Shown here: one piece after another, positions 9,263-52,878 of the stretch
How positions within the stretch are numbered: position 1 is the stretch's first letter
Layout of the letters: every line of letters starts with the position of its first letter
IMG/VR virus record: IMGVR_UViG_3300018421_000038
Location: 1-52,878 of that record
DNA length: 52,878 nucleotides
Direction: 5' to 3' (one strand)
From: a virus
Program-made: the position numbers and the translations under genes
Notes under the pieces: model-generated
Told to the model about the DNA's origin: nothing
Databases searched by the model: none
What the model saw: only the letters and a program-made list of their open reading frames with translations

Positions 9263-9290
9263 AGAGGTGCTCCTACTATACTTTTACTAT

Positions 9291-9319
9291 AGTATATAAC
9301 ATAATTTGTTTGTTGTCAA
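9291..9319 (-). promoter_or_regulatory. Sigma70-type promoter for the 9262-to-1 operon
   Basis: On the minus strand TTGACA (9319-9314), 17 nt, TATACT (9296-9291). The -35 is perfect, the spacer optimal, and the -10 differs from consensus at one base. It lies 29 nt above the ATG at 9262. The same TTGACA-17-TATACT pattern stands before gp47. An interrupted inverted repeat (CTATA, 7 nt, TATAG) at 9276-9292 overlaps the transcription start region and could be an operator. Confidence 0.8.
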
Positions 9320-20018: not shown

Positions 20019-20026
20019 TATTTATT
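20019..20026 (-). promoter_or_regulatory. T4-type late promoter box
   Basis: AATAAATA on the minus strand overlapping the stop codon of the giant gene (20025-20027) and 27 nt above the ATG at 19992. It would give the downstream fibre block its own late transcript. Confidence 0.5.
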
Positions 20027-32000: not shown

Positions 32001-35000
32001 TGGTTTATCTGTATCAAATGCCTGTCTATAAATACCTCTCCAAAATCCAGGTATTTTAGATCCATTAGGTCCGTTCGAATTCCTATAATTAAATGTCAAC
32101 CCATTATTTCTATCGTAAAAATTATTTTCGGAATAGTCACCTTTTAATGTTGATTGCCATGCTATAAAATCAGTAAGTAAGATATTATTGATCGATTCTA
32201 GGTTATTTTTAAATCCTCTAAAAGCACCACCGACAAAATTATACAAATCAAATTCATTATCGTTATAGTCTATTTTTATGTTATTAAAAATACGTTTCTC
32301 TAAATCTAGTAATAAACCGTCTCTAAAATCTTTATAACACGCAATCTGACTTCCGTCGTGACCTCTGACAAAAGGTATACCATTTGGATATAATTCAATA
32401 TTAGAGTCGTCATTGCCTGCAAGTGTACTATTTGTTTCAGGCATGAAAAATTGCTTTGCTAATCCTTTAAACCAAATACTTTTTACATTGCCAGAACCGC
32501 CGTTAGTAATATCTCTCTGCTGCGCAGAATTTTTAGAAGTATATAAAGGATAAAACCATCCATGAAGATTTTGTTTTTCTCCCGTCTCAACTTCGCCATA
32601 TATTTTGAACGGGCCTGAAATTAAAGTGCTTGCACTCTGACTTCCGGTATCGTCTAAAATAATTTCAGGATGCCAAGTAGGATAAAGTCCTAATTTTGAA
32701 GGCGTTGGTGCAATAAAAGATCCGTCGGTACTATCAAATTCATATATTTCTATAGTATCGCCATTTTCTTTGCTAGCAGTGATTTCAACAAAACCATCTG
32801 TATTAAAATTGTAATCTCTTTCGTGTACTAATAATGTTCCGTTGATGTATACAAGTAATGACTTAGATGTTAAATCTGATAATTTAAAACTTTGCGTAAG
32901 TGGAAAAAGATTAATTTCTTTATCTATTACATTATATTCTATACGATTGCCTGCGCCATAACCTAACATGTCGCTAAAATAAAATGGCTGAGACTTAGAT
33001 TTATCTTTGTTAATTTCTTTTAATATTCTATCAACATGCTTATTAGTAGTTCCATCATATCCTAAAGAATTAGCAGTATCAATAAATATTTTTTTAAATT
33101 TTACAAATTCTTTACTAGAATATTCTACAGCTTTGAATATATTATATTTCTTATTTGTTAAATGATAAATTGCATTTACTAACCCGGCTTCGTGCTTAAC
33201 AAATCTTTTTCCAAAATGATTTATTTTACCTGCATCTCTAAGGTTGCTATTACCTGGATAGACTCCTTCAAAATTTTGTATATCTTCAATCATGCTGTCA
33301 ACATGATCATATACCTCTCCTAAAGTAAAGTCTGTTACATCTTCATTTAACGGATTTCTCTCTAAAGAAATAGGAAGTTCGTAATACCCGTTTTGATTTT
33401 TTGACGCTTGACTATGTGTTTTTATTTTTAATATATCACCAACTGTTAAATTTTCTACAAAGTTTATAGAGACCGAATTTTGATTTTTAGTTATAACATA
33501 ATTTGTATTTTTAAATTGCAAACTATTATTAACATACACATGTACTTTTAAATCTTCTAAAAGGTGTGGCTTATCGTACACGTCTATTTTGAAATTATTT
33601 GTATTACCAGAGTCAACAACAATATCTTTAATAATATATTGTTTGAATCTAGAAGGGTTAGAATTCCATCCATTTACATACTCAAACGTATCTCTGTTTT
33701 TATATTTTCTAAGATTGGCAGTAGAAACATTTACAGATATCAAGTCGTCATTTTCTTGATAAGAAAAATTATCAGTCAATAAATTAAATTCAAATAATAT
33801 GTCACCGGTATTATTAATATTCCTATATGTTAATGGAAATCCTAATTCAGTATCTGCTGTTCCTTCGCCTACTTTATAAGAAAATATTTTAGTACCAGAA
33901 AAATTAGAACTTTCAAATATAGAAGCATCACTATATTCTGTTCCCTGTGGACAACACAAATCAAACAATGGCGCTTGATTTAATGATACTTTGTCTTGTG
34001 CTAGTATCCAACTTGATTTGTGATAATGTAGTGTTTTCCCTGCATATTTGTTTCCATTTTTAACAAATACAGTTTCTAGGTCAAGTGGATTTGAATCTAC
34101 AACTTCCTTAAGGTTTATAATTCTATCTTGTCCTATAGTCGTAAAATTGACTTCAAATATTTTTCCGCTTACTAACACATCGTTATCTGCAGTAAACAAA
34201 ATTCTCATGCCTTCGGCAATTTCTACTGAATCAATAATGTATCCGATTTGTCCTTGAATAGTGCTAAAAACATCAGTAGTAAAATCATCTACAAGATCTA
34301 CATCTGTTTTTGCAAAAGTTCCATAATTAAATAATTTTAATCCTGCTTCAAATTCTATTATAGGACGCTTTGCTCTAAAATTATCATCTAAGTTTTCGGG
34401 CAAGCCGTTATATTCAAAACTTTTGAGAACAACTTGCTTATGAAACCATCTGTTATTCCTTGACCACGGGTTTTTATCTTGAGCGGCTCTGTTGATTAGT
34501 AAATAATCTTTTTGTAATGGAAAATTATTTGCTGTAGAAAATGGAGTCGTATCAAATTCTTGAGAGTCAAAAGGTGTTTGAATATTATCAGTGTATGCCG
34601 AAGGAATAGTAAGATCAGATTCAGAAATTAGTTTTATTGACGAGCCTACACCTTCTACATACCATCTACCTGTACTGTATTTTTCTGGTATAACTGTTCC
34701 TGAAAATTCTACTTTTAATCCATTAGTAAATTCTATACCGTTTGAACTAGTATAGTATTTTTTACCTAAAATATCATTGTCTATATTTAAAAAAGTATTT
34801 TCTTCTACATCATAAACTCTTATTTGTCCGCTTGTGTTGATATCATTTTGACTAATATAAAAAAGCCTATCAGGGGCATTTGTTGGTATAGTAAATTCTA
34901 TTGTACCTTTTTCTATATATACGACGGCAATATCATCGCCATCTTCGTTAAATTTTCTTATACCGTCATTATATAGTGTAGATACATTTTCGTCTGCTTC

Positions 35001-35804
35001 AAAGCTAACACTTCCAGCATCAGGAGTAACTACAAAATCACCTATATCGTATTCATTACCATATAATTCTGCATCAAATAATCCATCAGATCTAATTCCT
35101 TCTCTTCCTGCTACAAGTAATGCAAGTCCAGGAATAAATGTTCTACTTATAGAGAATGCAATAGGATGATTAGGTGTGTCTATGTCAAAACGATAAGTTT
35201 GTCCTCTATAAAGTTTTAGTGTTGGATTTCTTGTAAACCCATCGTTGAATACATATGCAACATTATCGCCTTGATCTTCAAGTGTAATAGAATATGTACT
35301 AGTAATTTCTCTCGCTTGGCCACTTACAGGAACACTAAGGGGACCGTTTGGAAGCCAATAGTATTCTCTAAAATTTGTAAATTTGTCAAAATCAATATGC
35401 GGATTCCAACTATATGAATTTACTGTGTTAAGTTTATCATGGTTAGAAACATCTGATCCGAAATATTTTAATATGTTTATGTAATCTTTGTAATCTTTTA
35501 CAAAGTCTATGTTTTCTAAATTATCTTTTAAAACAACAGAAGGTTCTAATTGATAGTCCTCCCTTTGTTTATTAATTTCAGGTATATAGTTATCAGACAG
35601 ACTAAAACCCTTTGTATATTTTCTACCAACATATCCGTCAACTTTTTCTGCGGTTCCGTTTGCAATTAATTGATCTAATGTTCCCTGAAGAAATTTTCTG
35701 TTTGCTTCTGTCCTAAAAAACTTTGGCAAAAAATCTATAGATTTTTTATTGTTATTGTTAGGTGTAGGAAGGGCACTCTCATTTTGATTATTGTTATATG
35801 CCAT
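20025..35804 (-). CDS. Giant (5,259-residue) baseplate wedge-like structural protein
   Basis: The N-terminus SIDFLPKFFRTEANRKFLQGTLDQL is of the type seen in very large T4-like marine phage virion proteins, and the gene holds the gp7 position after gp25 and gp6. Visible parts: LYRGQTYRFDIDTPNHPIAFSISRT (about 200-230); CBM5/12-like repeats of the form 'Y..GD.V.Y....Y.A' at about 1588, 1840, 2300, 2395, 3040 and 3100; FG-GAP/propeller-like strands (FGASIDVSSDGEYLAVGVP, FGYEIGFTNENLLITS, FGRNLLAKNNHVYVGIP) between about 2360 and 3430; two 'GSGY..PP.V' repeats (about 3890 and 4240); and a beta-rich C-terminus. Start codon overlaps the gp6 stop (TAATG). There are no frameshifts or stops across 15.8 kb. 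Function as a wedge scaffold and glycan-contact protein is inferred. Confidence 0.7.
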   Translation of the reverse strand: MAYNNNQNESALPTPNNNNKKSIDFLPKFFRTEANRKFLQGTLDQLIANGTAEKVDGYVGRKYTKGFSLSDNYIPEINKQREDYQLEPSVVLKDNLENIDFVKDYKDYINILKYFGSDVSNHDKLNTVNSYSWNPHIDFDKFTNFREYYWLPNGPLSVPVSGQAREITSTYSITLEDQGDNVAYVFNDGFTRNPTLKLYRGQTYRFDIDTPNHPIAFSISRTFIPGLALLVAGREGIRSDGLFDAELYGNEYDIGDFVVTPDAGSVSFEADENVSTLYNDGIRKFNEDGDDIAVVYIEKGTIEFTIPTNAPDRLFYISQNDINTSGQIRVYDVEENTFLNIDNDILGKKYYTSSNGIEFTNGLKVEFSGTVIPEKYSTGRWYVEGVGSSIKLISESDLTIPSAYTDNIQTPFDSQEFDTTPFSTANNFPLQKDYLLINRAAQDKNPWSRNNRWFHKQVVLKSFEYNGLPENLDDNFRAKRPIIEFEAGLKLFNYGTFAKTDVDLVDDFTTDVFSTIQGQIGYIIDSVEIAEGMRILFTADNDVLVSGKIFEVNFTTIGQDRIINLKEVVDSNPLDLETVFVKNGNKYAGKTLHYHKSSWILAQDKVSLNQAPLFDLCCPQGTEYSDASIFESSNFSGTKIFSYKVGEGTADTELGFPLTYRNINNTGDILFEFNLLTDNFSYQENDDLISVNVSTANLRKYKNRDTFEYVNGWNSNPSRFKQYIIKDIVVDSGNTNNFKIDVYDKPHLLEDLKVHVYVNNSLQFKNTNYVITKNQNSVSINFVENLTVGDILKIKTHSQASKNQNGYYELPISLERNPLNEDVTDFTLGEVYDHVDSMIEDIQNFEGVYPGNSNLRDAGKINHFGKRFVKHEAGLVNAIYHLTNKKYNIFKAVEYSSKEFVKFKKIFIDTANSLGYDGTTNKHVDRILKEINKDKSKSQPFYFSDMLGYGAGNRIEYNVIDKEINLFPLTQSFKLSDLTSKSLLVYINGTLLVHERDYNFNTDGFVEITASKENGDTIEIYEFDSTDGSFIAPTPSKLGLYPTWHPEIILDDTGSQSASTLISGPFKIYGEVETGEKQNLHGWFYPLYTSKNSAQQRDITNGGSGNVKSIWFKGLAKQFFMPETNSTLAGNDDSNIELYPNGIPFVRGHDGSQIACYKDFRDGLLLDLEKRIFNNIKIDYNDNEFDLYNFVGGAFRGFKNNLESINNILLTDFIAWQSTLKGDYSENNFYDRNNGLTFNYRNSNGPNGSKIPGFWRGIYRQAFDTDKPHSHPWEMLGFQNKPTWWNMVYGPAPYTSNNLLLWEDLEKGKISDPNNTRIDKRFARPGLTTFIPVDKTGNLLPPVAINYIEGFIQRSADASFEFGDYSPIENAWRKSSEYPFSILKTMLLLNPAETIGKGFDLSRSTKNLAGQYVYKDTGKNIQNKDIIFPNTYADNQRNITYGLVNFTYNLVASDILKVYTDYQNEVKNLQVNLSFRLGSFSDKNKLNFVLESKTPNSDIGSTGIFIPQENYNLVYNVSSPIDNFIYSGIIIEKTPSGYKLTGYNQKNPYFNYYSPLVGSTNFVVSVGGISEEFSNWSSLTPYKKDQVVFQLNTYYRVTEDFTSGELFDTEFLAKLPALPSIGGRAAEFYKNFDTSIVKKLPYGTILENIQEVVNFLLGYGRYLENQGFIFDDVTDEVVNDWTSVTKEFMFWTTQGWANGTVISISPSANRLSFQKDFAVVDDVFDSFYNTSIVSSNGQLLDRNFNSILRDLNNFGIEVVDTDLGLYGAALPIVQKEHVVVFDNNTIFNDVIYHPASGYRQERIKLNGYRAAEWNGSLNIPGFIYDNAVVKEFENYKDYKIGDIIKYKEYYYVAKQNIAGSTSVDYNQWYLLNEKPVPDLLTNFDYRIAQFNDFYDINTANFDNTLHDLSARLIGFQKRNYLSNLIIDDVSQLKFYKGFIQEKGTKNSLSKLFEPLSAQGEESLEFFEEWAVRSGVYGASEDIKQIEIPLPDTKMIESPQPVLFTDNLPAEKFDNIYRVLPSDLLDKPLDYTSNVFPILQNTAEFIKSSGYVDEDDIDFEAASVNDLALGNVNVFRLGGYLHLTNQDNSDWTVYQHVETNLKATVLTEATTLDTQGRLIYELQVDQWVGNNLQIGDMVAVRGATEFNFNGFYKIIDVNLNKLSIKVPIDNDINGFENQNLIVTKLRKVRIQNTSEANAIVDQNIYDNQKLWVDNIDSNWQVLQNQKVYSFLHQYDNPSDWDSTQQKFTDSMTATDDNRNLFVSSAGDDSGKVFVYKRTNENANLQLQQVLSFDEISDWKPLTDYKNGARVRYDNKYYLLNLTLTPEETYTSEETFNSFKWTEIDSPSGYIDIFDQFGASIDVSSDGEYLAVGVPNASGVKTKYLGNFNPDIEYTKHDIVKFRESFWQANLTVFPQIGTQPFSTFDSYIDLTSRDDTDSTNLQLLVAGKFGLPTGNIDHMLIRAPIDMYIGTKGRVDGQAGDKINLSWNRVSYAFPTLDRYLPFDNQIPEITPEFLSQEHEIIEKIDAILYVDTYVSLPTVGEIIETDTGSGEVFYIASFRDSAVIYLKNINGIIDITGELFALNTGNFIGFYTQESTYATTPSVGGFWYINTAEFDEAGNLTSGFTYTNNGRYLDIGRGLVYADIRPSSNNDADRPFTYYNIQTTVDDIGNFVLDKNRVSFLTHLSYRGDIVDEESNLWVLRVGKTYSDLLNSQGALVGQGNENNKVLKLKFFENESFVNNINSKGYNIDELNGENKLYDIWDGYIDFSFTEFDFVGNPFEPVVGDIIQDVQIPRDGAGGLALTSRSTSTAEIVSYRKEFNSVRVYLKILTGTWEELNNIGRFQIRRLANEAVRGPGDVDRVMGTVEDVDNDILLGTNKVGKLLVFEKNGEDPADVFTAVDNAEILEAEYYFFDETTEGGIARAANAPNSLNKDWSQIYNIPANIRGTSSGLVNEGVVVIYRRQPNGIYEFDNILTSQYKQNERKFGDQVKIRKFGNTYHLLVGSKGDLNSSTRFDPGSIEVFTHGPTDNERFKGEYQATVYQEGDIVLYKDKFYVANKDTDEGIQLNILNPVVWNNISWRYGVDENYRGNWDNTYGYAVGSIVLYNNLFYVARTNIAAGTAFSESLWEQISSNIDYLGYLPNLTGNNLLGEDVFDPSENIIEFSESFDVSENGEVLVVTALLESSDSTTNKKIAIYRKEDNKYKLYETISAPLSGFELQDHDLDKFETDVDGNWIYRDAEGEIATPLTGTRTLNPNATPDIFIDKTNWAHKVAISPDGKQIVISVLNDNTKKYRQGAVLVYNQNNGSFSAQQPQVLYSPQGEVAENFGYEIGFTNENLLITSINGDQTIPTTFDFYTNRDPNSEEKYGSKFVNDPSSSLAEKPTSFDLGFTEFRNIKVDTGVVYVYENLNGSYIYSEKFRFDNTTAEFGRNLLAKNNHVYVGIPFYSLETEKGILVDYRKPKGKKAWNTYKQIVPPVDLELIEGVYLYNTKENRIISYVDYIDPIQGKIAGVAEANITYKTDKDPAYYNVGSTTEREFDLDQTWFDEYVGQVWWDISTARFDYPYQGTILEQKNTWSKLTEGASIDVYEWIETDYLPSQYSKLADTDEGIKIGISGQPLYGDSKFSSKLIYDEVARVFSTKYYFWVRNKRTIPPIKNRTVSIFDIESLIRTPRETGYRYISFTGQNRIILNNFDNLILSNDVVLNIKYKSNPTKDSNEHIEFKLLSEGDSNSKLDKDIERKWFDSLIGFDTNNRPVPDINLPRKQKYGILNQPRQSMFVNRIEALKQTIERINLKFEELLIVDDYDISNLLMTDKAPSIVSREYDITVDTFEELEFVSTNNVTQAQLQPIISNGKIIRVDITSPGRGYKVPPSLELRGKGTGAQIELTINSLGNVTAAKIVSQGSGYGPDTSITVRRFSVLVQSDSTANNIWSVYGYNEIQKNWFRRLSQGFDVTKYWEYKDWYAPGYNQFTNVNYEIDASYQLQTINPEFNSVVKIKNIGGSGWLLLKRIGSSNSEDYSIDYETIGREKGTIEFLSNLYDNVTTTVGYDNRSFDSVLFDNNPARELRIIFETLRDNIFVNNLAYEYTNLFFCGLRYAVAEQSTIDWAFKTSFIKINHNVGDLDQPATFRNDNLLYFRDYVEEVKPYSSKIREFVTKHNRIEPTNTAVTDFDAGPFYNNVTDQIETLKSTVSQNTLIKVDNVLDEYPRKFFLDNIGAQISEIKIKNAGSGYIFPPKVIIEDNNSGAEAEAFIGYGKVTKIIVRNPGGMFINPPKIRLEGAQTDDGETATAFAILGKSLVRTPSIRVKFDRVSGDYFVEDLFLSETFTSSGIDVNFDLKWPLDLNKNKIKVFVNNQEMLRSTYTASNIEKVKDYTYQQGRITFVTPPVSTAVVRIEYYKPLSLLDAADRIKFAYNPADNMFGKDLNQLMTGIDYGGVEVKSFDFGGPSGWDSQPWYTDAWDIYENTFEDEIFVSDGSTIAVELRNPLEKDIVYNLYKNGVRIDDPNFDEGTYTNSYAIVNSITGDGTTKIIETQNLGITLNDGDILIVRKITSDGSVVPDLDSYDSALQGGDLAYTTAAGINAEEIITDGDLFVSTSRAKTEELVPGSVFDTLDLKVYTRKSGNQGLIICKNFRIPPNTETFTYNFDILPGTIDSILVKYDGRLLDKSEFNVNWTTKQLTLDVEPQKTLSIVLQEETTSTNIIDSGELLITQQEQYDFVIDYEYNDNIALSVTLNGDVQEINLFNYSTVVEDDNRIAFRLTEPATLGQTLNYTILSDNQTVNYSQIVTDEFVATSGQQTFTLGQAPFYALPTEHNTIVRVDQKVLNSGYSKKFVIPENNQREYQLELFQQPAGSLDAQTMLVFLNGEQIFTPTEWRLDISNSSIILGDEYGQPGDTIEIYNIAESEYTISGNQITLKDIPSNNATIYVTQFSNHNLKEIEKIQYDVVKRETLITDTELSTYLRLTAGEIQLRAPAIDAQYVWVNKNGELLTPSVDYFITDDRMRLRLVNIPNENDTIEIIHFTADLTVEGFAYRQFKDVLNRTHYKRLDAHSTVLAQDLAYNDLRIEVQNGEDLPTPDKGKNLPGIIFINGERIEYFVKEQNTLRQIRRGTLGTGVPEVHVAGQKVFNQNKDKTVPYKDQNLVANLTADGVSTTFTIGYNIDSINEIEVFAAGKRLRKNEIAVFDQTKALTSPEGDIILPAEFSVDTVNNTITLLNVPQENSRITVIKRQGQVWTKDNEMLGNSQNSIARFLRAGTYEQP

Positions 35805-42559: not shown

Positions 42560-43782
42560 TATGTATTAATCCAACTTTTAGCGACATCCGTGACAGCATT
42601 TGTAACATCTGTTACAGTATCGCTTAAACTATTTGTAACATCAGTAACTGCTTTATTTACACACCCTGCAAGATCGTCAGGAAATAATGATCTAACACTG
42701 CCTAACGCATCATTTATAATATCGTCTGGGTATGGAAGCTCAGGAGCAATATCATCAATATTAGGCAAAGCATCTACAGGCAAGGGGTTTGGAATTTCTT
42801 TAGGCACTAAATCTGGCAATTGTTCTTGGCCTCTTGGATCGGCTGCGTCTGGGTTTTGCTCGGGAGGCACCGGTGCAATAACTCCTGCATTTGTTGTAGT
42901 ATTTGCTTCGCCTACAGATGTTATTTCTACAGGAGAAGCTGCTGCTGCACTTATGCCATGAATTAATATATCTTTTATTTTCTCTCCAGAACGAAAGTCA
43001 TATCTATCGTCCAACGGATCTATTTGATAGTAAACATAAGGATTTGCTACAGTTGGCAGTGTTGTAGCAGGTAAAGGAGCGGCACCTGCCCTAGTACCAC
43101 GATAAGCACCTACGCCCGACCCTGCAGATGCTCTTTCTACTTGGGCTCTTTCACTTACTCCGCTAGCAGGCAAAGCTCTATTAGCGCCTGACGTGCTTAC
43201 ATCTACTTCTTGTATTTCTCCGCGGCCTCCGGCCTTTATATCTTCAAGTGCTTGATATAAGTGGTCTGGATCATGGTTTGCTTTATTCAATCCATCGCCT
43301 GCATAAAAACTCTGTCCTTTTCTTAAATTTCTTCTAGGAGAATTTTTGTATACACTTCCTGCTGGAACATCATAAGGAACAGGCATACTAGCAAACTCTG
43401 CTGCTAAAAATACCATAAATTGTCCTGTATTAATACTTCCTGTTTTCCATTCATTATATCTTCTGAATCGTTCAAGACGTTTAATTATCATTGCATCTTG
43501 AACGTCTTGTGAAAAAGTTGTCCTAAGAGGATCGCATCCTAAATAACCAACACACTCTTTTAGGGTGCTTTTAATAAATTGATACTTTCCTACAGCACTA
43601 GATCTTCTTCCTGCATTTAAACGCTGTGTTTGGTATGCTTCAACTTGCGACAATGTCATATTTACAAGTTCAGGCTCTACATGTCCAGGCCATACACTGC
43701 AATAAGGATTGCTACGCACAGCTTCGCCGTCTGCTATTAATCTAATTAATGCTCTGTCTTGATCCGAAATTGTTACTGCCAT
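42559..43782 (-). CDS. Lysozyme/GH104-like muramidase domain protein, baseplate-associated
   Basis: 407 residues. Residues about 7-130 (ALIRLIADGEAVRSNPYCSVWPG, RRSSAVGKYQFIKSTLKECVGYLG, FSQDVQDAMIIKRLERF) match the layout of phage lysozyme-like transglycosylases, with Glu20 the likely catalytic acid and S-A-V-G-K-Y-Q-F the conserved block. The rest is Pro/Ala-rich linker and ends in an amphipathic repeat (VTDVTNSLSDTVTDVTNAVTDVA). It sits between the hub and spike genes with TAATG overlaps at both ends, so it is probably a virion muralytic enzyme rather than an endolysin. No signal peptide is present. Confidence 0.75.
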   Translation of the reverse strand: MAVTISDQDRALIRLIADGEAVRSNPYCSVWPGHVEPELVNMTLSQVEAYQTQRLNAGRRSSAVGKYQFIKSTLKECVGYLGCDPLRTTFSQDVQDAMIIKRLERFRRYNEWKTGSINTGQFMVFLAAEFASMPVPYDVPAGSVYKNSPRRNLRKGQSFYAGDGLNKANHDPDHLYQALEDIKAGGRGEIQEVDVSTSGANRALPASGVSERAQVERASAGSGVGAYRGTRAGAAPLPATTLPTVANPYVYYQIDPLDDRYDFRSGEKIKDILIHGISAAAASPVEITSVGEANTTTNAGVIAPVPPEQNPDAADPRGQEQLPDLVPKEIPNPLPVDALPNIDDIAPELPYPDDIINDALGSVRSLFPDDLAGCVNKAVTDVTNSLSDTVTDVTNAVTDVAKSWINT

Positions 43783-46700
43783 TAACCTATTCCTCGACCT
43801 GTTATTGCATCAACAGCAGATTGTGCATCACTAACTGCCTTTTCGATATCTTTAGCTGCATTTTCGATGTCTTTCCTTAGTCCAGGAAAAGTAGAAAATG
43901 CGTTTTGTGGCGGTTTCCATGTAACACCTGCTATGCTTAATGTGGGTACATTTGTAAGCACTGTGTTAACTTCAGGAAAGACATTAGATAGCACATTATC
44001 TGCTGCATCTCCTATATCTGTTAATATTTTCTTTATGGGCGATTCGCAAGGATCATCTGTAACTGTGCCTGGGCCGGTGCCCCCTACTTCGCCGTCAATT
44101 GTATCATCTGCTACACCTTTGTTGACACTTACGCTGTCGTCTATACTTACAAATCCTTGCGATGTTCCTTCTTCATTCTCTTGTCCTCTACTTCTTACTA
44201 AAGACATGTTTTGTGTAAATTTACCTCCAGCAAAAGAACTTTCAACACTTATTACTTGATATATGCCACTAAACTCAGGTACAAGTTTTGAAAAAACAAC
44301 ATTATCACCAGTTATAGAATAATCCACAGGAGTTCTAAAGTTAACTATTATATATACTTGATTTTCGATATACGTCATATAACCTTCTTGCGTGATTGAT
44401 GGACCGTCTCCCCTATCTCCTATATAGTTTCCTGTTTGGGTAGGAAGAAAATAAGGATCTCCCATAATTTCTATATCAGCAGTTAGCATATCAACATTAC
44501 TATTCAAAAATCTTTGGTGAAATGTTTCTGCTATTCTTTTGCGTACATCGGTTGTTCTACTATCTCCAGTTATTGGGAATTTGTTAGTTTCACTAATGCT
44601 TCCTGTTCCAACACCTCCTGTGTCAGATTGTTGATTAGTTTCTGGTACAGTGGCACCTTTTTGATCTCCAGTGTTTTGCGCAGTTTTCTTGTCTGAAGTT
44701 CCTGATGCTCTTGAACCTTGGTTCATACCAAAATTAGAATATGCTTCTTGTAAAAATGCATTATTAAATTGTATGTCAAAATTTAAAACATCATCGTTTT
44801 TGCCTGTGTAAATGTAATTAAATTCTTTTTTTGCTGCGGCACGTAATGCAGCACGGTTTGGCGCAGTACCCGACGGGGCTTGAAATGCGGCATCATCTGC
44901 ATAAAAAGGAACCACACTATAAACATATATTCTTGGGTTTCTTCCAAATCGTCTTTCAGCTTCTGGATCGTTGTCGAGAAACACATGAGTATTAATTCTA
45001 TAAAGTTGTCTAATACCAGTATCATTAACTTTTTCTGCATTTTCTGCTGCATATATACTATCAACTAATACTTTTTCAATTATTGCATCTATTCTTTCTC
45101 CTGCGGCAAATGATTTTTCTCTTGCCTTTTCTGAAACGGATAATTCAGTTGTTGTAGTGTCAGCAACGCCTTCATCGTTGTAAGATGCACTAGGATCTGC
45201 TGCTGCTGCGGTTCCGCCTTGATTATCATCTTCTACTAATAAACTAAGTCCAATTTGATTCATAAAAGTTATATCTCGAGAAAAGTTTTCCAAATTAGAA
45301 CTTATTGTATTTTTTGACGGTACAACTACATTTGATAGAGATTCTTCTTTCCTAGGATCGCCTTCTGGTAATTCAGATAATCCTCTTTCTATTTGTAGTT
45401 GTTCTGCTGCTGTTTTTGTAACATCAGGAACTGTCATTTGCCCTGCCACAATTTTCATAATAGCCGCAGGATCTTTTGGAAAAGCAATTATAACTCTGTC
45501 TCCGTTAGGCTGAGCTCCTGACTCTTCAAGGGTAGCTGTTCTTTGATTCATGGTTGCTGCAACAGATCGATCAACACCTGATAACACATCAGCAACAGTT
45601 GTACCTACAGTATTAATATCTGATTTAACTTCTGCTGCTTCGTCGCTCAAAGCAATTTCACTAAACGGAACAGCTTTAACTTCGTATTCTGATCCTGAAC
45701 CATTTACAGCAAAATTTACATTTATAATTTGTATAGGTATATATGCAGGCGCTTGGACTGTTGTAATACTTTCTGTTCCGTTTTCATTCCAACCTACAAA
45801 TTCTATTTTTATACCAAATGGAGCACTGTTATAATTTTGGTAACCTAGATCTTCTGCTGCGGTGACTAGAGATTGTATAAAATTACCCATACTGTAAGGT
45901 TCTAATACAGTAAATCTCATGTCTGTACCAAGAGTAACTCCTGTTTTTTGATTAGGTTGAATAATTCCTTTTGTTGTTAAAGATTCTATAAAATATTCTG
46001 CGTCACCGCCTATTTCATTTTCGATAGGAATACGATGTCTTTTTTCATATTTTCCGCCGCCTGTTCGTGCAATAATTTTTTGGAATCCATCTTCTCGCAA
46101 AAGTAGCGGATTATTAAGTTCTGTAGTAGACAATATTCCTAATGTAATCACATAGTTGAATGAGTTAAATTCTTTAAGAGGATTAGATATAAAATTAGGT
46201 TTGACACCCGATCCTGTTACATTACCTGTGTTTCCTATCACATCAGAAAATAGTCCTATACCGCTCCTATCTTCTATTTCTTCTGCAAGTTCACGCAATC
46301 GACCAAAAGTGCCTTCGACAGCACCTAATATAGAATCAAATTCTTTTGGTACCACGTTTATGATTTGATTAGTAAAGCTAGATATATCATTAAATCCACC
46401 TATAATATTATTAAGAGTGTCAAAACTAAATTCACCTATAAAATCAGCAGGTGAGTTAAAGTTTCCTAACGTACCTGCGATAGCGTTGCTTATAGAACTT
46501 AATTCACTTGAACCGATACCGTCAAAAATGCTTAAATTTAAGTTTCCAGTAACTGTCTGCGTTAAATCACCTAAGGGATTTTCTGCTACCGAAGATAAGA
46601 TATTATCTAGTTTAAGTGCACCTGATTCTTGTAAAAAATTAAAACCTCCGGCTTGAAATCCTGCTAAAACATTAGAAACGCCTGTTCCAGTAGCTTGTGC

Positions 46701-46907
46701 ATTTATGGCACCTTGTGCCATGTTGAATATATCATCGGCAGTTTTGGTAATAAGATCGTTAGAATTACTAAAGCCAGCTGCAATACTGCCTACTTCATTT
46801 ATACCTGCGGCAGCATTTACAGTTCTACCTGTAATTGCGTTGACTGCTGTTGTAACTGTTGCTGCGGTTGCAAGTGCTCCACCAGTATTCTTCCAGATTG
46901 CCGGCAT
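43782..46907 (-). CDS. Large baseplate hub-like structural protein
   Basis: 1041 residues. The first 245 are Ala/Gly/Asn-rich and helical. Residues about 248-420 (FNSFNYVITLGILSTTELNNPLLLREDGFQKIIARTGGGKYEKRHRIPIENEIGG) form a domain characteristic of hub-region proteins in T4-like marine phages. Near about 880, FSGIYQVISVESSFAGGKFTQNMSLVRSRG resembles the C-terminal strand region of gp27/gpD-type hub proteins. The last 35 residues are an amphipathic helix (KDIENAAKDIEKAVSDAQSAVDAI). It directly abuts gp53 and overlaps the lysozyme-like gene by TAATG. Assignment as the gp27 counterpart is inferred from this C-terminal motif and position. Confidence 0.65.
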   Translation of the reverse strand: MPAIWKNTGGALATAATVTTAVNAITGRTVNAAAGINEVGSIAAGFSNSNDLITKTADDIFNMAQGAINAQATGTGVSNVLAGFQAGGFNFLQESGALKLDNILSSVAENPLGDLTQTVTGNLNLSIFDGIGSSELSSISNAIAGTLGNFNSPADFIGEFSFDTLNNIIGGFNDISSFTNQIINVVPKEFDSILGAVEGTFGRLRELAEEIEDRSGIGLFSDVIGNTGNVTGSGVKPNFISNPLKEFNSFNYVITLGILSTTELNNPLLLREDGFQKIIARTGGGKYEKRHRIPIENEIGGDAEYFIESLTTKGIIQPNQKTGVTLGTDMRFTVLEPYSMGNFIQSLVTAAEDLGYQNYNSAPFGIKIEFVGWNENGTESITTVQAPAYIPIQIINVNFAVNGSGSEYEVKAVPFSEIALSDEAAEVKSDINTVGTTVADVLSGVDRSVAATMNQRTATLEESGAQPNGDRVIIAFPKDPAAIMKIVAGQMTVPDVTKTAAEQLQIERGLSELPEGDPRKEESLSNVVVPSKNTISSNLENFSRDITFMNQIGLSLLVEDDNQGGTAAAADPSASYNDEGVADTTTTELSVSEKAREKSFAAGERIDAIIEKVLVDSIYAAENAEKVNDTGIRQLYRINTHVFLDNDPEAERRFGRNPRIYVYSVVPFYADDAAFQAPSGTAPNRAALRAAAKKEFNYIYTGKNDDVLNFDIQFNNAFLQEAYSNFGMNQGSRASGTSDKKTAQNTGDQKGATVPETNQQSDTGGVGTGSISETNKFPITGDSRTTDVRKRIAETFHQRFLNSNVDMLTADIEIMGDPYFLPTQTGNYIGDRGDGPSITQEGYMTYIENQVYIIVNFRTPVDYSITGDNVVFSKLVPEFSGIYQVISVESSFAGGKFTQNMSLVRSRGQENEEGTSQGFVSIDDSVSVNKGVADDTIDGEVGGTGPGTVTDDPCESPIKKILTDIGDAADNVLSNVFPEVNTVLTNVPTLSIAGVTWKPPQNAFSTFPGLRKDIENAAKDIEKAVSDAQSAVDAITGRGIG

Positions 46908-47234
46908 TTATGCTCCTAGTATGCTTTTTAAATGTTTACGTTGCGGTAGATATATTTTTGTGCCTGCTATAAAATCAAAAACTGGATCTTTAAGTACATC
47001 AGGATTTCTTTGCGCAAAAATCCACCATAATTCTCTACTAGAATACAAATCGTAAGCTAATAAGTCAGGTCTATACGTATATGCAGGTACTATTTCATAA
47101 AAAATATCATCTCCAGCAACAGGCACAGGTCTTGCTCTCATTATATCTAAAAAACCTGCACTATTGATAGGTGTTTTTCCGTAAGGACCTTTATTTTTTA
47201 TTTTTTGAATATTATTATTTGTCAAATCTGCCAT
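46908..47234 (-). CDS. 53: Baseplate wedge subunit gp53
   Basis: 108 residues, shorter than T4 gp53 (196). YTYRPDLLAYDLYSSRELWWIFAQRNPDVLKDPVFDFIAGTKIYLPQR is the diagnostic gp53 segment, with a LysM-like 'G..I.LP' ending. gp53 joins adjacent wedges during baseplate ring closure. Its stop is followed immediately by the hub gene, and its ATG overlaps the stop of the upstream gene by 1 nt. Confidence 0.9.
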   Translation of the reverse strand: MADLTNNNIQKIKNKGPYGKTPINSAGFLDIMRARPVPVAGDDIFYEIVPAYTYRPDLLAYDLYSSRELWWIFAQRNPDVLKDPVFDFIAGTKIYLPQRKHLKSILGA

Positions 47235-48163
47235 TAGATGAATCCTTCGTCAGTTGGTATAAAATCACCCCTTGCAAAAGCTTCTAAGCTAAATCTACTA
47301 TGGGCTGTTCTAGCATAGTTAGGTACAACAGTTACCGTAATTATACTTTGAGTAGGAACATAAGTTACTTCTCCGCCTATATCGCACTCAATATAATCTA
47401 CATCTGCAGGCATGTCTGTAGTAAAGTTAGTTACAAGTATAGGAACATTATTAAAAACATGTTTTCCGTACCCATTAAGTCTACAAACAGGTGGAGGATT
47501 TCCTAAATTATTACTTTTGCCATAATACATTTTTGTTACTGTACGTAAAAAATGTAAACACGCTACCCAATATCTTGCATCATCGTCGTTTTCACTAAAA
47601 AATTCTCCTGTAAGGGTAAGATTGTCAATTTGACTATTTTCATACGCATAAAATGGATGGTTTGTATGAGTAGGATGCACTGGTGAATAATTTGCACTAG
47701 AACCGATAATAACTGTAGGTGTGAAAGGAAAAATCATACAATTATCTGTATTACTTATTGGTCTTAATACTTCTCCTTGTATAAGTTCACTAGGTGCTTG
47801 TATTTTTACTCGCCAGTCAACTGCGTCAACTGTGTTATAATCATCTCTAATTATAGCTCTTATAAAGTTTTTGCCTTCCGGTGATGCTCCGTAAGACACT
47901 CCTTGAAGTGCATTGCCTGCCATCCTTATTGCAGATCCAACTTGTGATAGTGTTCCGCTTCGACCGTTTATTAGAGTATCAACTGCTCCAAGTGCGTTTG
48001 CTACATTATTGACAGTATTACCTCTACCTTGCGATATATTTCTAAAAGAAGTTATTGCTGTGTTAAGACTAGATGTTACTCGCGAAACATTTTGAGATGT
48101 TTGTACGATGTTTGATCCTATAATATTACCAGCAAGGTTACTAAATGAACTTAAAATTGACAT
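47234..48163 (-). CDS. 48: Baseplate tail-tube cap/junction protein (gp48/gp54-like)
   Basis: 309 residues from MSILSSFSNLAGNIIG. An upstream in-frame ATG at 48196 is rejected because the late promoter box (48183-48190) lies downstream of it, whereas GGAG at 48174-48177 suits the ATG at 48163. The C-terminal half (LTGEFFSENDDDARYWVACLHFLRTVTKMYYGKSNNLGNPPPVCRLNGYG, NVPILVTNFTTDMPADVDYIEC) has the tube-like fold motifs of T4 gp48 and gp54, which connect the hub to the tail tube. The N-terminus is helical. Choice of 48 over 54 rests on gene order in related phages. Confidence 0.75.
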   Translation of the reverse strand: MSILSSFSNLAGNIIGSNIVQTSQNVSRVTSSLNTAITSFRNISQGRGNTVNNVANALGAVDTLINGRSGTLSQVGSAIRMAGNALQGVSYGASPEGKNFIRAIIRDDYNTVDAVDWRVKIQAPSELIQGEVLRPISNTDNCMIFPFTPTVIIGSSANYSPVHPTHTNHPFYAYENSQIDNLTLTGEFFSENDDDARYWVACLHFLRTVTKMYYGKSNNLGNPPPVCRLNGYGKHVFNNVPILVTNFTTDMPADVDYIECDIGGEVTYVPTQSIITVTVVPNYARTAHSRFSLEAFARGDFIPTDEGFI

Positions 48164-48182
48164 AACGATATATCTCCATAAG

Positions 48183-48190
48183 TATTTAGT
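48183..48190 (-). promoter_or_regulatory. T4-type late promoter box heading the baseplate block
   Basis: ACTAAATA on the minus strand, 20 nt above the ATG at 48163. The CTAAATA form is known from T4-like marine phages. Its upstream end shares base 48190 with the first base of the rightward -35 element. Confidence 0.65.
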
Positions 48191-48218
48191 TGACAAAATT
48201 ATCTACGTATATTATAAT
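48190..48218 (+). promoter_or_regulatory. Perfect sigma70 promoter for gp55
   Basis: TTGACA (48190-48195), 17 nt, TATAAT (48213-48218): a full consensus host promoter, 25 nt above the gp55 ATG at 48243. Transcription by unmodified host polymerase early in infection is expected. Confidence 0.9.
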
Positions 48219-48223
48219 AAATA
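48216..48223 (+). promoter_or_regulatory. Possible late box overlapping the gp55 -10 element
   Basis: AATAAATA follows and overlaps TATAAT. If used, transcripts would start near 48229, just upstream of the GGAG site (48233-48236). It may be a by-product of the AT-rich -10 region. Confidence 0.3.
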
Positions 48224-48242
48224 CATTACAACTGGAGTAGTT

Positions 48243-49082
48243 ATGAGGAGAAAAAATTATCTTAACAACAAAGACATACTTAAAGAAATACATAGATCAA
48301 AAAATACTTTTAATAGTTATGTTGACAAAGAGTACGCTGACTATGATATAATTTTAGACAGCGTAGATAGAATAAACATTAGAACAATCGCAGAAGCAAA
48401 AAGAAATAAAGCAAAACGCTTGAGTACCGAAGATTATGAACGTAGACGTTTAGCAGGAGAAAAATGCAAACAGGCCGATTGTGAAATTGATTACAGATCA
48501 ATTTCAAAAGAAGAATTAATTTTTCGAATCATGACGTTCGACCACATTCCAGACGAACCTGGACGGAAAAAAAATCCTAAAACTGTTGCTGACACAAAAG
48601 TAAAATTAAATTTTCCACCTTTTCAACATTTTAAGTTTACCGAAGACGGTGAACTAGTATGTGTAGGTAAGTCACATTGGCAAGGCGGCATGGAAAACGG
48701 ATATTTTAATAATAAACACGGAAAAGCAACAGACAAACTTGCACTCATGTGGTTAAAATTGGTAGATCGTTATGCTACTCGCGGAAATGTTCGGGGTTAT
48801 ACTTATAATGACGAAATGAAAGGTCAAGCTATTCTACAACTTTCACAAATAGGACTACAATTTGACGAATCTAAGTCAAATAATCCGTTTGCTTACTATA
48901 CAGCAGCAGTTACAAATAGTTTTGTGCGTGTAATTAATATTGAAAAGCGTAATCAAAACATTAGAGACGATATATTAGAACAAAACGGATTGAATCCTAG
49001 CTATACTAGACAACATGAAGGTGAATGGGAAGCAAGTGTTAAACGAAATGAAGAGGCGTCTCAGTCGCCATTTACAAAATAA
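48243..49082 (+). CDS. 55: Late transcription sigma factor gp55
   Basis: About 279 residues from MRRKNYLNNKDILKEI. GGAG lies 6 nt upstream. An open frame extends back to 48108 but crosses the promoter, so it is not used. The C-terminal part (GQAILQLSQIGLQF, NPFAYYTAAVTNSFVRVINIEKRNQNIRDDILE) is the sigma region 2-like core of T4 gp55, which directs host polymerase to TATAAATA boxes together with gp33 and the sliding clamp. The N-terminal half is basic and longer than in T4 (185 residues). First gene of the rightward operon, beside the late promoter it should activate. Confidence 0.88.
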   Translation: MRRKNYLNNKDILKEIHRSKNTFNSYVDKEYADYDIILDSVDRINIRTIAEAKRNKAKRLSTEDYERRRLAGEKCKQADCEIDYRSISKEELIFRIMTFDHIPDEPGRKKNPKTVADTKVKLNFPPFQHFKFTEDGELVCVGKSHWQGGMENGYFNNKHGKATDKLALMWLKLVDRYATRGNVRGYTYNDEMKGQAILQLSQIGLQFDESKSNNPFAYYTAAVTNSFVRVINIEKRNQNIRDDILEQNGLNPSYTRQHEGEWEASVKRNEEASQSPFTK

Positions 49083-49085
49083 TGG

Positions 49086-49114
49086 TTGACAAGTGTTTAA
49101 AAAACCTATATACT
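49086..49114 (+). promoter_or_regulatory. Sigma70-type promoter for gp47-gp46
   Basis: TTGACA (49086-49091), 17 nt, TATACT (49109-49114), directly after the gp55 stop and 28 nt above the gp47 start. Hexamers and spacing are identical to those of the promoter at 9291-9319. Confidence 0.85.
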
Positions 49115-49141
49115 TAGACACAGTATACATGGAGATATCAC

Positions 49142-50158
49142 TTGTTTAAAAAAGCTGCCGTTTTTACGGATATACATTTCGGTTTAAAAGGCAATAGTCG
49201 TGTACACAACGACGATTGCGAAAAATTTGTAGATTGGTTTATTGAAATTGCAAAAGATCATAGTTGTGAAACAGCTATTTTTTGTGGAGACTGGCATCAC
49301 AACCGTAATTCACTAAATCTTACTACAATGGATGCTACTATTCGTAGTTTAGAAAAACTTGGTGCAGCCTTTGACAAGTTTTACATGTTTGTAGGCAATC
49401 ATGACTTGTATTATAAAGACAAACGTGAAGTAAGTTCAACTATATTTGGAAAACATATTCCCGGCGTAACATTTGTAGACGAAATCTTGCAAGAAGATGA
49501 TGTTGCACTAGTTCCTTGGCTTGTTGGCGATGAATGGAAACGTATAGAGAAGTTACAAGCCAAATATATGTTTGGACACTTTGAATTGCCTAGTTTCTAT
49601 ATGAATGCTATGGTACAAATGCCAGATCATGGTGAACTAAAGAGCGAACACTTCAAGAATCAAGAGTATGTGTTCTCAGGACACTTCCACAAGCGTCAAA
49701 AGCAAGGCAAGATCCACTATATTGGTAATGCTTTCCCACACAACTATGCAGATGCTTGGGATGACGACCGTGGTATGATGATATTAGACCGTGAGAACAA
49801 TGCGGAACCAGAATATATCAACTGGCCGGACTGTCCAAAATACCGTACAGTCAAACTATCACAGTTGATTGACGAAAAAGACACATTAATTAAACCAAAC
49901 ATGTACCTTCGTGTAACATTAGACTTGCCTATTAGTTATGAAGAGGCAAGTTTTATTAAAGAAACATTTATAGATCAATATAAGTGTAGAGAAATTACAT
50001 TAATTCCTCAAAAACAAATAGAAGAAATTACAACGGATTTAGACATTGGCCAATTTGAAAGTGTAGATCAAATTGTTGCTAGTGAAATTTCCGAACTTGA
50101 CACTGAAAACTTTGATAAAAAGATGCTATTAGACATTTACAATGGATTAGAACACTAA
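49142..50158 (+). CDS. 47: Recombination nuclease subunit gp47 (Mre11/SbcD-like)
   Basis: 338 residues (T4 gp47: 339). Metallophosphoesterase motifs in order: FTDIHFG (D10, H12), CGDWHH (D50), VGNHDLYY (N86, H87, D88), MFGHFE, SGHFHKR. With gp46 it forms the Mre11-Rad50-type complex that resects DNA ends for recombination-dependent replication and host DNA degradation. The start is TTG at 49142, with GGAG about 8 nt upstream. The nearby ATG at 49129 is out of frame. The stop is followed by gp46 after 1 nt. Confidence 0.93.
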   Translation: MFKKAAVFTDIHFGLKGNSRVHNDDCEKFVDWFIEIAKDHSCETAIFCGDWHHNRNSLNLTTMDATIRSLEKLGAAFDKFYMFVGNHDLYYKDKREVSSTIFGKHIPGVTFVDEILQEDDVALVPWLVGDEWKRIEKLQAKYMFGHFELPSFYMNAMVQMPDHGELKSEHFKNQEYVFSGHFHKRQKQGKIHYIGNAFPHNYADAWDDDRGMMILDRENNAEPEYINWPDCPKYRTVKLSQLIDEKDTLIKPNMYLRVTLDLPISYEEASFIKETFIDQYKCREITLIPQKQIEEITTDLDIGQFESVDQIVASEISELDTENFDKKMLLDIYNGLEH

Positions 50159-50159
50159 T

Positions 50160-51932
50160 ATGATTAAACTAAAGGATTTAACCGTCAAAAATTTTATGAG
50201 TGTAGGTAATCAAACCCAAGCTGTTGACTTCAACAATGAGCAACTTACTCTTGTGCTTGGTGAGAACTTAGATCAAGGCGGCGATGACAGTGGATCACGC
50301 AACGGTACTGGCAAAACTACGATTATCAATGCTTTAAGTTATGCATTGTACGGTCAAGCACTAACTAACATCAAAAGAAACAATCTTATTAACAAGACTA
50401 ATTCTAAAGGTATGTTAGTTACACTACATTTTGAAAAAGATAACATCAACTACCGCATTGAACGAGGTAGATCGCCTAATGTACTCAAGTTTTATATAAA
50501 CGAACACGAGCAAGACCTAACAGACGAATCACAAGGCGATAGTCGTAAGACACAACAAACAATTGACGACTTATTAGGTATGAGTCATGATATGTTTAAA
50601 CATATTGTTGCACTAAACACATACTCAGAGCCGTTTTTAAGTATGCGGGCTAATGATCAACGTGCAATTATTGAACAATTGTTGGGCATAACACTATTAA
50701 CTGAAAAAGCAGACGCACTAAAAGACCAAATACGTACTACAAAAGATGCAATTACCGAAGAAACTCTTAAGATAGAAGCTATTAAAACAGCTAACAGTAA
50801 AATCGAAGCAAGTATAGAAAGTCTTGTAAGTAGACAACGTGCATGGTTATCAAAAAAAGATGCAGATACTAGCAAACTAGAAAAATCAATAGATGAATTA
50901 GAAAAATTAGATATTGAAGTAGAACTAGATGCACACGAAAAACTTCAAAATTGGACAGAGTTAAACGCAGCAATTACGGCTCTTAATAAAGAAAAAAGCA
51001 CATTAGAGAGCGCAATGTTACGTGCATCTAAGAGTGTAGAAAAAGCAGAAAAAGACATCGGAGATTTAGAAGATGCAACTTGTTATACTTGTGGACAAGC
51101 ACTACATGACGATAAAAAACAAGAAATCGAGTTAATAAAAACAAAAGAATTAAACGATGCTATTGCTTATCAGTCTGAAGTAGCCGAAAAATTAGAAGAA
51201 GCAATAAAATCATTAGAAGATATAGGCGATCTTAACGGTCGACCTAATACTTTTTATGAATCTATTAAAGAAGCATATGAACATAGAAATAATGTTGACA
51301 GTTTAAAACAAGCACTATCAAATAAACAACAAGAAATTGATCCGTATCAAGATCAAATCGATGAATTAAACACATCTGCAATACAAGAAATAAATTGGGA
51401 CACAGTAAACACTCTGACTAATTTTAAAGAACATCAAGAATTCTTACTTAAACTACTAACAAACAAAGATTCGTTTATACGCAAAAAGATTATAGATCAG
51501 AACCTTGCATATTTGAACAATAGACTAACATATTATCTTGATCGACTCGGACTTCCTCATCAAGTTGTTTTTCAAAACGACCTAAATGTTGAAATTACGC
51601 AACTAGGACAAGACTTAGACTTTGATAATCTATCACGAGGTGAAAGAAACAGACTGATATTGGGTATGAGTTTTGCATTCCGTGATGTTTGGGAGAGCCT
51701 ATATCAAAATATTAACTTGTTATTCATTGATGAATTAATTGATTCGGGTATGGACACTGCTGGAGTTGAAAACTCACTAGCAATTTTGAAAAAAATGACT
51801 AGAGAACGCAGTAAAAACATCTTTTTAATTAGTCATAAAGATGAATTAGTAGGAAGAGTTAATCATGTGTTAAAGGTAATAAAAGAAAATGGATTTACAT
51901 CATATGCAAACGATGTAGATATTGTAGAATAA
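50160..51932 (+). CDS. 46: Recombination nuclease ATPase subunit gp46 (Rad50/SbcC-like)
   Basis: 590 residues (T4 gp46: 560). Walker A is GSRNGTGKTT (about 45-54). Coiled-coil arms flank the zinc hook CYTCG (C307 and C310). The signature motif is LSRGERNRLILGMSF (about 489), Walker B is LLFIDELIDSGMD (about 520-532), and the switch histidine is in LISHKDE. It binds DNA ends and powers gp47. It begins 1 nt after gp47, and its stop overlaps the next start (TAATG). Confidence 0.94.
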   Translation: MIKLKDLTVKNFMSVGNQTQAVDFNNEQLTLVLGENLDQGGDDSGSRNGTGKTTIINALSYALYGQALTNIKRNNLINKTNSKGMLVTLHFEKDNINYRIERGRSPNVLKFYINEHEQDLTDESQGDSRKTQQTIDDLLGMSHDMFKHIVALNTYSEPFLSMRANDQRAIIEQLLGITLLTEKADALKDQIRTTKDAITEETLKIEAIKTANSKIEASIESLVSRQRAWLSKKDADTSKLEKSIDELEKLDIEVELDAHEKLQNWTELNAAITALNKEKSTLESAMLRASKSVEKAEKDIGDLEDATCYTCGQALHDDKKQEIELIKTKELNDAIAYQSEVAEKLEEAIKSLEDIGDLNGRPNTFYESIKEAYEHRNNVDSLKQALSNKQQEIDPYQDQIDELNTSAIQEINWDTVNTLTNFKEHQEFLLKLLTNKDSFIRKKIIDQNLAYLNNRLTYYLDRLGLPHQVVFQNDLNVEITQLGQDLDFDNLSRGERNRLILGMSFAFRDVWESLYQNINLLFIDELIDSGMDTAGVENSLAILKKMTRERSKNIFLISHKDELVGRVNHVLKVIKENGFTSYANDVDIVE

Positions 51933-52135
51933 TGGAAGACACTCAAGACAAACTAGTAAAGGCTTATTTAGAATATTTTAAGGCAAACGAAAAATTTGAA
52001 GCTCGTAATTCTGTGCGGACTCATAGATATGTAAGAAAATGTCTTAGAGAAATTAGAGAATTAGCAAAGACACGTATGGAAGAAATACACGAGACGCATA
52101 ATAAAACTAGGAAAATCAAAAAAGATAATATTTAA
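51932..52135 (+). CDS. Small basic helical protein, unknown
   Basis: 67 residues, highly charged: NSVRTHRYVRKCLREIRELAKTRMEEI is a long basic helix that could touch nucleic acid or gp46/47. A similar small gene is usual after gp46 in T4-like marine phages, but I know of no assigned function. Its TAATG overlap with gp46 suggests translational coupling. Confidence 0.7.
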   Translation: MEDTQDKLVKAYLEYFKANEKFEARNSVRTHRYVRKCLREIRELAKTRMEEIHETHNKTRKIKKDNI

Positions 52136-52158
52136 CATAGGCTTCGGTAAGTAAGTTC

Positions 52159-52608
52159 ATGCAATGGACTTATGAAGGAAAACAAATTGATACAATACCA
52201 GACGAGTATGAAGGATTTGTTTATCTCATAACTAATCTTACCACTGGGCAAAAGTACGTAGGCAAAAAACTAGCAAAATTTAAAACTACAAAACCACCTC
52301 TCAAAGGCAAAAAAAATAAACGCAGAGGCTACAAAGAAAGCGATTGGAAGGACTATTGGGGTTCATCTGATAGACTCAACGCTGACGTTGAAGCACTAGG
52401 CCCAGAAAACTTCACAAGAGAAATATTATACCTATGCAAAGGCCGTGGAGAAATGTCCTACATAGAGGCACGAGAACAGTTTGACCGCCGTGTATTAGAG
52501 AGAGATGATTATTACAACGGTATTATTAATGTTAGAGTTGGCGGATCAGACAAACTACGACAGGCATTGCTAGAACATAGCATCAAGGCAAAACAATCCA
52601 ACACATAA
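52159..52608 (+). CDS. GIY-YIG-like nuclease domain protein
   Basis: 149 residues. GFVYLITNLTTGQKYVGKK (about 19-37) has the spacing of the GIY-YIG motif, with Y-L-I for GIY and Y-V-G for YIG. YKESDWKDYWGSSDRLNADVEALGPENFTREILYLCKGRGEMSYIEAREQ supplies the usual following helix with Arg and Glu candidates for catalysis. No separate DNA-binding domain is visible after it, so it may be a resident phage nuclease rather than a homing enzyme. Its ribosome site is weak (GGTAAG). It ends immediately before the structured non-coding stretch. Confidence 0.72.
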   Translation: MQWTYEGKQIDTIPDEYEGFVYLITNLTTGQKYVGKKLAKFKTTKPPLKGKKNKRRGYKESDWKDYWGSSDRLNADVEALGPENFTREILYLCKGRGEMSYIEAREQFDRRVLERDDYYNGIINVRVGGSDKLRQALLEHSIKAKQSNT

Positions 52609-52878
52609 GGTTGGCGGGCCAGACTAGAAATACCGCTGTGGAAAAAGCATCCGTATAGGAGCACACGTAACACGTTAAGCGGCGTTCGGTAGTAGAGCGT
52701 TTGATTGACGTAGACTGATTGTTGGCTGTCGAAAAACTGCACATTGTACATAAAAACCGTATGCACTAGGAACGAAGCAACGGGTAGCGAAAGCGATGTC
52801 GACGTAGGTTGGGAAAGGTCAGAGCCCATTGTACAGCAGAAAACACCTACTTCCAAGTCTCGGCTGTGGCGAACTCAC
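52609..52878 (+). ncRNA. Candidate structured RNA (truncated by window edge)
   Basis: There is no plausible gene on the plus strand, and GC is about 48% by direct count over 52621-52878, well above the surrounding genes. Complementary segments: 52612-52617 with 52633-52638 (GCGG/CCGC core plus wobble pairs); TCC 52650-52652 with GGA 52658-52660; GTAGGTTGGG 52804-52813 with CCCA 52825-52828 and ACCTAC 52845-52850, a 10-bp stacked helix with a 16-nt bulge; and a GC-GAAA-GC mini-hairpin at 52787-52794. CATTGTACA recurs (52742-52750, 52827-52835), with self-complementary TGTACA that could form a loop-loop contact. It does not match tRNA, and I saw no tmRNA or RNase P signature. Strand is assumed from the upstream operon. 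Confidence 0.55.

Follow-up and report, generated by a model that had tools for sequence, protein, structure and literature searches.

In the DNA analysed here, a virus record of 52,878 bases referred to below as the window, the gene for the late sigma factor gp55 lies beside what is, as judged from its sequence and that of its relatives, a real, conserved and compact early/late divergent promoter. The two parts, a predicted leftward late promoter and a predicted rightward early promoter, are both well supported, and they overlap by one base: base 48190 belongs to the leftward late box as well as to the early -35 hexamer. Dozens of uncultured T4-like lineages have preserved this fusion nearly unchanged in sequence, and polymerase can probably use only one of the two promoters at a time. 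The composite is located in an intergenic stretch of 79 bp near the right end of the window, which separates a leftward structural operon from the rightward genes gp55, gp47 and gp46. The region contains the following features:

46908-47234, minus strand: gp53-like baseplate wedge gene, next in the leftward operon
47234-48163, minus strand: first gene of the leftward virion/baseplate operon (phrog_12050, E 3e-43; phrog_7145, baseplate wedge, E 9e-23)
48174-48177, minus strand: Shine-Dalgarno sequence GGAG of the leftward gene, read directly
48183-48190, minus strand: putative leftward late (gp55-type) promoter box ACTAAATA; the plus strand reads TATTTAGT
48190-48195, plus strand: -35 hexamer TTGACA of the early gp55 promoter, part of a 12/12 sigma-70 match
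48196-48212, plus strand: spacer of 17 bp with the consensus AAATTAWSWNNGTAKWT; conserved sequence, possible site of a further factor
48213-48218, plus strand: -10 hexamer TATAAT of the early gp55 promoter; predicted +1 at about 48225
48216-48223, plus strand: AATAAATA overlapping the -10 hexamer; candidate rightward late box, not conserved
48243-49082, plus strand: gene for a gp55-type late sigma factor of 279 aa, ATG at 48243 (phrog_12791, 'sigma factor for late transcription', E 3.5e-80)
49086-49114, plus strand: another early promoter, TTGACA-17-TATACT, in front of gp47; its spacer is the control for that of the gp55 promoter
49142-51932, plus strand: gp47 and gp46, SbcD/SbcC-like (phrog_100, E 9.5e-70; phrog_77, E 2.3e-104)

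The preliminary description of this DNA had given the leftward box, the early promoter TTGACA-17-TATAAT (48190-48218) and the rightward AATAAATA with letters and coordinates that all proved right, and it had named gp55 as the first rightward gene, in agreement with the ATG and the PHROG 12791 match listed above. The phrog_234 late sigma factor matches gp55 residues 158-259, and about 155 additional N-terminal residues (48243-48714) stand ahead of this part. Beyond the gp53-like gene, the leftward operon continues with baseplate hub/wedge genes. A GIY-YIG homing endonuclease ORF of the SegE type (PF19835) follows gp46 at 52159-52608. A megablast search of the region against named phages gave no match.

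For the analysis of conservation, loci of relatives were gathered by gp55 protein similarity alone, and loci found through the composite itself were excluded from the statistics. The compact divergent layout asserted in the preliminary description was recovered without exception among close relatives: all 79 loci with a gp55 of at least 75% identity and sufficient upstream DNA (58 distinct upstreams) contain the exact fusion TATTTAGTTGAC. At 60-75% gp55 identity, 90 of 97 loci are fused, 24 of them as TATTTAGTTGAC and 66 as TATTTATTGAC, in which the fusion is kept and the box takes another late form, AATAAATA; the other 7 are unfused. Thinning by gp55 similarity left 58 close representatives and 16 of a second subclade. 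In these representatives the 12 fused columns reach 2.0 bits each, while most flanking and leader columns show about 0.1-0.6 bits. TTGAC is invariant (74/74), and the leftward box has the form ACTAAATA in all 58 close representatives and the form AATAAATA in all 16 of the second subclade. Traced over the gp55 tree, the box switches from ACTAAATA to AATAAATA and back again in L375 and L379, with the fusion persisting throughout. A homologue of the left gene lies on the strand opposite to gp55 wherever it was found, which is the case in 162 of the 169 fused loci. Two contigs with close gp55 relatives, PBPT01000016.1 (335 kb) and PBPT01000082.1 (153 kb), are binned in a Candidatus Neomarinimicrobiota MAG; they may be either misbinned phage contigs or a hint at the host.

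Chance does not explain the fused arrangement. When the window was shuffled 200 times with its dinucleotides preserved, the full composite occurred 0.0 times per shuffle, the fusion of box and TTGACA 0.065 times and a perfect TTGACA-16/18-TATAAT 0.12 times. Its conservation, which goes far above these shuffle statistics, is the strongest proof that the arrangement read from the sequence is not accidental.

The composite is also confined to gp55. Each large genome contains one copy, although several to dozens of early promoters are present. In ten large relatives one exact TATTTAGTTGACA was found per genome (TATTTAGTTGACT in one), and GTCAACTAAATA occurs in exactly one copy in every genome of that form. 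Given these single copies, TATTTAG cannot be a standard upstream element of early promoters, nor GTCA one of late promoters. A scan of IMG/VR, in which 0-16 bases were allowed between the late box and the TTGACA-side box, showed a gap of 0 in 42 of the 80 matches listed, and 39 of these 42 adjoin gp55; the other matches listed have gaps of 2-16 and none of them adjoins gp55. Away from gp55 a gap of 0 is about as common as other gaps, so that the fusion as a general design of divergent promoters is unsupported. Two instances of TATTTAGTTGACA outside gp55 look like real divergent cases, though they could be due to chance: one near 1683 (plus strand) of L240, between a virion-like gene and a glycosyltransferase, and one near 1719 on the minus strand of L264, between a lipase-like gene and a small ORF.

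The left half of the composite resembles a T4-type late promoter. The motif [N][AC]TAAATA occurs 8 times on the minus strand of the window, and 5 of these boxes (10662, 15439, 20026, 39351 and 48190) sit 22-29 nt before minus-strand starts, where 0.05 would be expected. Three of the five have the form AATAAATA, one is TATAAATA and one, at 48190, is ACTAAATA. The last lies 27 nt before the leftward ATG, akin to the four other boxes; together with the conservation of the box and the baseplate genes identified by PHROG, this upholds the earlier proposal of a late promoter on the left, in front of the baseplate operon. Three relatives have the next late box of this operon in front of the large wedge gene; it takes the form AATAAATA or GCTAAATA and lies 24-31 nt ahead of the start. 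Both ACTAAATA and AATAAATA forms are found elsewhere in these phages 22-31 nt before structural genes. The late-promoter consensus of phage Aeh1 has a/gC at -13/-12 (PMC2988020), and ACTAAATA matches this form, [a/g]CTAAATA, exactly. The marks of a T4-type late promoter are thus present: an 8-bp box near TATAAATA, a fixed short distance to genes and an encoded gp55 homologue. Pfam models for gp33 and the sliding clamp gp45 gave no match in 11 records, and a Pfam search for MotA gave none; control genomes were without match in both cases, too. According to the T4 numbering, the late box covers -13 to -6 (PMC2988020), which places the predicted leftward +1 at about 48177. In L402 and L407 the leftward late box and the left gene are so close together that the late start is predicted to fall on the A of the gene's ATG, and the leftward late mRNA is possibly leaderless there. 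Within the leftward late block of the window, the ORF at 8909-9319 (minus strand) has its own early-type TTGACA-17-TATACT (9319), and a single ORF of 5,259 codons lies amid the virion genes at 20025-35804 (minus strand).

The right half is a perfect early promoter, as had been described: its 12/12 sigma-70 match is conserved in relatives and is the only one of this quality in 43000-52878. In most of the 12 large relatives scanned, sigma-70-type matches are more numerous than those of a reversed-pattern control. The neighbouring gp47 has a separate early promoter (49086), and the two spacers were compared in the 67 loci that contain both promoters. In the gp55-promoter spacer the columns have a mean of 1.32 bits and the pairwise identity is 72%; in that of the gp47 promoter the corresponding values are 0.38 bits and 37%. 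Sigma-70 promoters are normally indifferent to the sequence of the spacer. Since conservation is restricted to gp55, a further bound factor is possible, and the conserved spacer suggests that an additional factor acts on the early promoter. In the 12 large relatives the spacer pattern recovers the site at gp55, its other matches hardly exceed chance, and no further copies of the stretch above chance were found in the genomes. The idea of a palindromic operator in the spacer was dropped: its half-sites do not covary in the representatives, as judged by eye, and extra copies above chance are missing.

The gene order, with the baseplate operon to the left and gp55, SbcD and SbcC to the right, was also found in the named phages PA5oct, Atu_ph07, Phosso, Vibrio 2.275.O, RaK2 and 121Q, with small insertions in some of them; in all six the homologue of the left gene is divergent from gp55. 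In RaK2 and 121Q the late box lies 1-3 bp from a weak -35. Atu_ph07 (L278), a cultured Agrobacterium phage with 43% gp55 identity, keeps the exact fused 13-mer TATTTAGTTGACAAATTAACTAC but, unlike the window, has no good -10 at 16-18 bp; an IMG/VR search with its gp55 returned only Atu_ph07 itself. In PA5oct and its soil relatives the boxes are 22-35 bp apart. Among the latter, 22 representatives have a leftward TATTTATC exactly 35 bp before TTGAC; they were chosen for this spacing, which is also the commonest among unselected sister loci. In this soil clade (L286-L328), about 60 bp ahead of the early promoter of gp55, ATAAAC and TTTTAT are conserved between box and TTGAC; a GAAAYC/GAAACCC repeat stands on either side of that promoter, and the spacer is free. 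As far as sequence comparison can tell, the gp55 control region is rigid in both clades and built differently in each.

We consider it probable, though by no means assured, that the composite works as a divergent promoter with mutually exclusive polymerases, leading to a self-timed hand-over from early to late transcription and to negative feedback on gp55. To the right, host sigma-70 polymerase would read the perfect early promoter, so that gp55 is made first; to the left, gp55-polymerase would read the T4-type late promoter and open the baseplate operon. Early in infection the strong early promoter would be occupied and the late box covered, which would keep the baseplate operon shut. As gp55 and clamps accumulate, late complexes would displace the early polymerase and limit the early start of gp55. 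The DNA covered by late open complexes is known to extend upstream of the box, and a further 13 bp on that side are taken up by the sliding clamp (PMC2988020). A late polymerase with its clamp at the leftward box would therefore cover the early -35 and the spacer. Base 48190 is at once an early -35 and a late -13 position, which makes simultaneous occupancy by two polymerases implausible. Mutual exclusion is thus what the geometry would lead one to expect, and from it we infer the feedback on gp55; the start sites, likewise, are predicted positions. Exclusion would be dispensable to the lifestyle, since the two promoters are apart in at least 7 loci of the same clade and 35 bp apart in the soil clade.

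Two ordinary promoters could also have been squeezed together, each conserved for itself and their overlap tolerated without regulatory effect. The shortness of the intergenic stretch, just 79 bp, and the related phages that live with their promoters apart would fit such compact packing, but it would permit the spacing to drift by a few bases, as RaK2 and 121Q show, while the spacing is base-exact in 58 of 58 close representatives amid variable surroundings. In addition, the fusion stays when the box form changes. A spacing fixed to the base and a fusion that outlasts the change of its box disfavour simple packing, and we regard it as unlikely. The conserved spacer leads to another explanation, according to which TATTTAGTTGAC and the spacer mainly bind a phage or host regulator of gp55 and the late box is secondary. 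The gp55-specific conservation (1.32 vs 0.38 bits), the absence of the spacer pattern from other early promoters, the 13 bp that Atu_ph07 keeps together with AAATTAACTAC in spite of lacking a good -10, and the repeats that flank the gp55 promoter in the soil clade speak for it. Against it, the change from TATTTAGTTGAC to TATTTATTGAC in the second subclade is a swap of late-box forms, and such swaps on the gp55 tree are not expected of a fixed operator for another protein; the freshwater loci L340 and L344 are fused although their spacer is not the same, and there is no second genomic copy above chance. A main role as operator therefore appears distinctly improbable to us.

The rightward AATAAATA at the -10 hexamer gives rise to a further alternative, a feedback in both directions: as an active late promoter it would replace the early start and sustain gp55 late in infection, and the additional gp55 mRNA would amount to positive feedback. 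Other genes of the window have AATAAATA as their late box, and its position here, 27 nt ahead of the gp55 ATG, agrees with the usual distance of the window's late boxes; chance would account for about 0.02 such placements. Of the 58 close representatives, 14 contain it, where 5.6 would be expected if the columns were independent, and some sister phages have a rightward GATAAATA upstream of the gp55 early promoter. On the other hand, the remaining 44 close representatives and every one of the 16 from the second subclade lack it. The earlier suggestion that gp55-polymerase could act from either box is accordingly weak in that form. The rightward AATAAATA lies outside the conserved design and may have a role in this phage and its close kin, and we think it improbable that it sustains gp55 expression as described. 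A broader reading adds the spacer to the proposed exclusion between the early and the late promoter. The gp55 region would then be a regulatory hub, in which exclusive promoters and a factor that reads the spacer make three competing binders on about 40 bp, and the soil clade would have a differently built hub for the same job. We put this forward tentatively, as the less probable extension of the hand-over model.

Several elements of this arrangement have counterparts in known phages. The late promoters of T4 and Aeh1 likewise have an 8-bp box (TATAAATA in T4), need no -35, serve structural genes and come with a gp55 homologue; in the window, by contrast, the late box is fused to the divergent early promoter of gene 55 itself. 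The cyanophages Syn9, P-SSM2 and S-SKS1 have a sigma-70-like -10 before gp55, and gp47 and gp46 downstream, as in the window, but their gp55 is collinear after uvsW and one small ORF and has no divergent late operon next to it. In phi29 (A2c/A2b-A3), early and late promoters lie on opposite strands in one short region, and the early operon encodes a protein acting as repressor of the early promoters and as activator of the late promoter (PMC3100819). The window similarly has early and late promoters on opposite strands, and its early operon starts with a candidate switching protein, gp55. While the switch of phi29 relies on the DNA-binding proteins p4 and p6 with a single polymerase form, in the window the late sigma factor itself would switch by occupying an overlapping promoter. 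Divergent early/late switches and T4 late promoters are thus known; a late box fused to the early promoter of the late-sigma gene itself, and conserved at base level, was not reported in the literature searched.

The control of the late-sigma gene and the coupling of late onset to early shut-off in T4-like phages are poorly known beyond coliphages. Here, about 40 bp seem to carry the whole decision; they are conserved across uncultured aquatic phages, and their function is testable by shifting one box. The comparison of metagenomic phages can in this way reveal strict spacing between opposing promoters.
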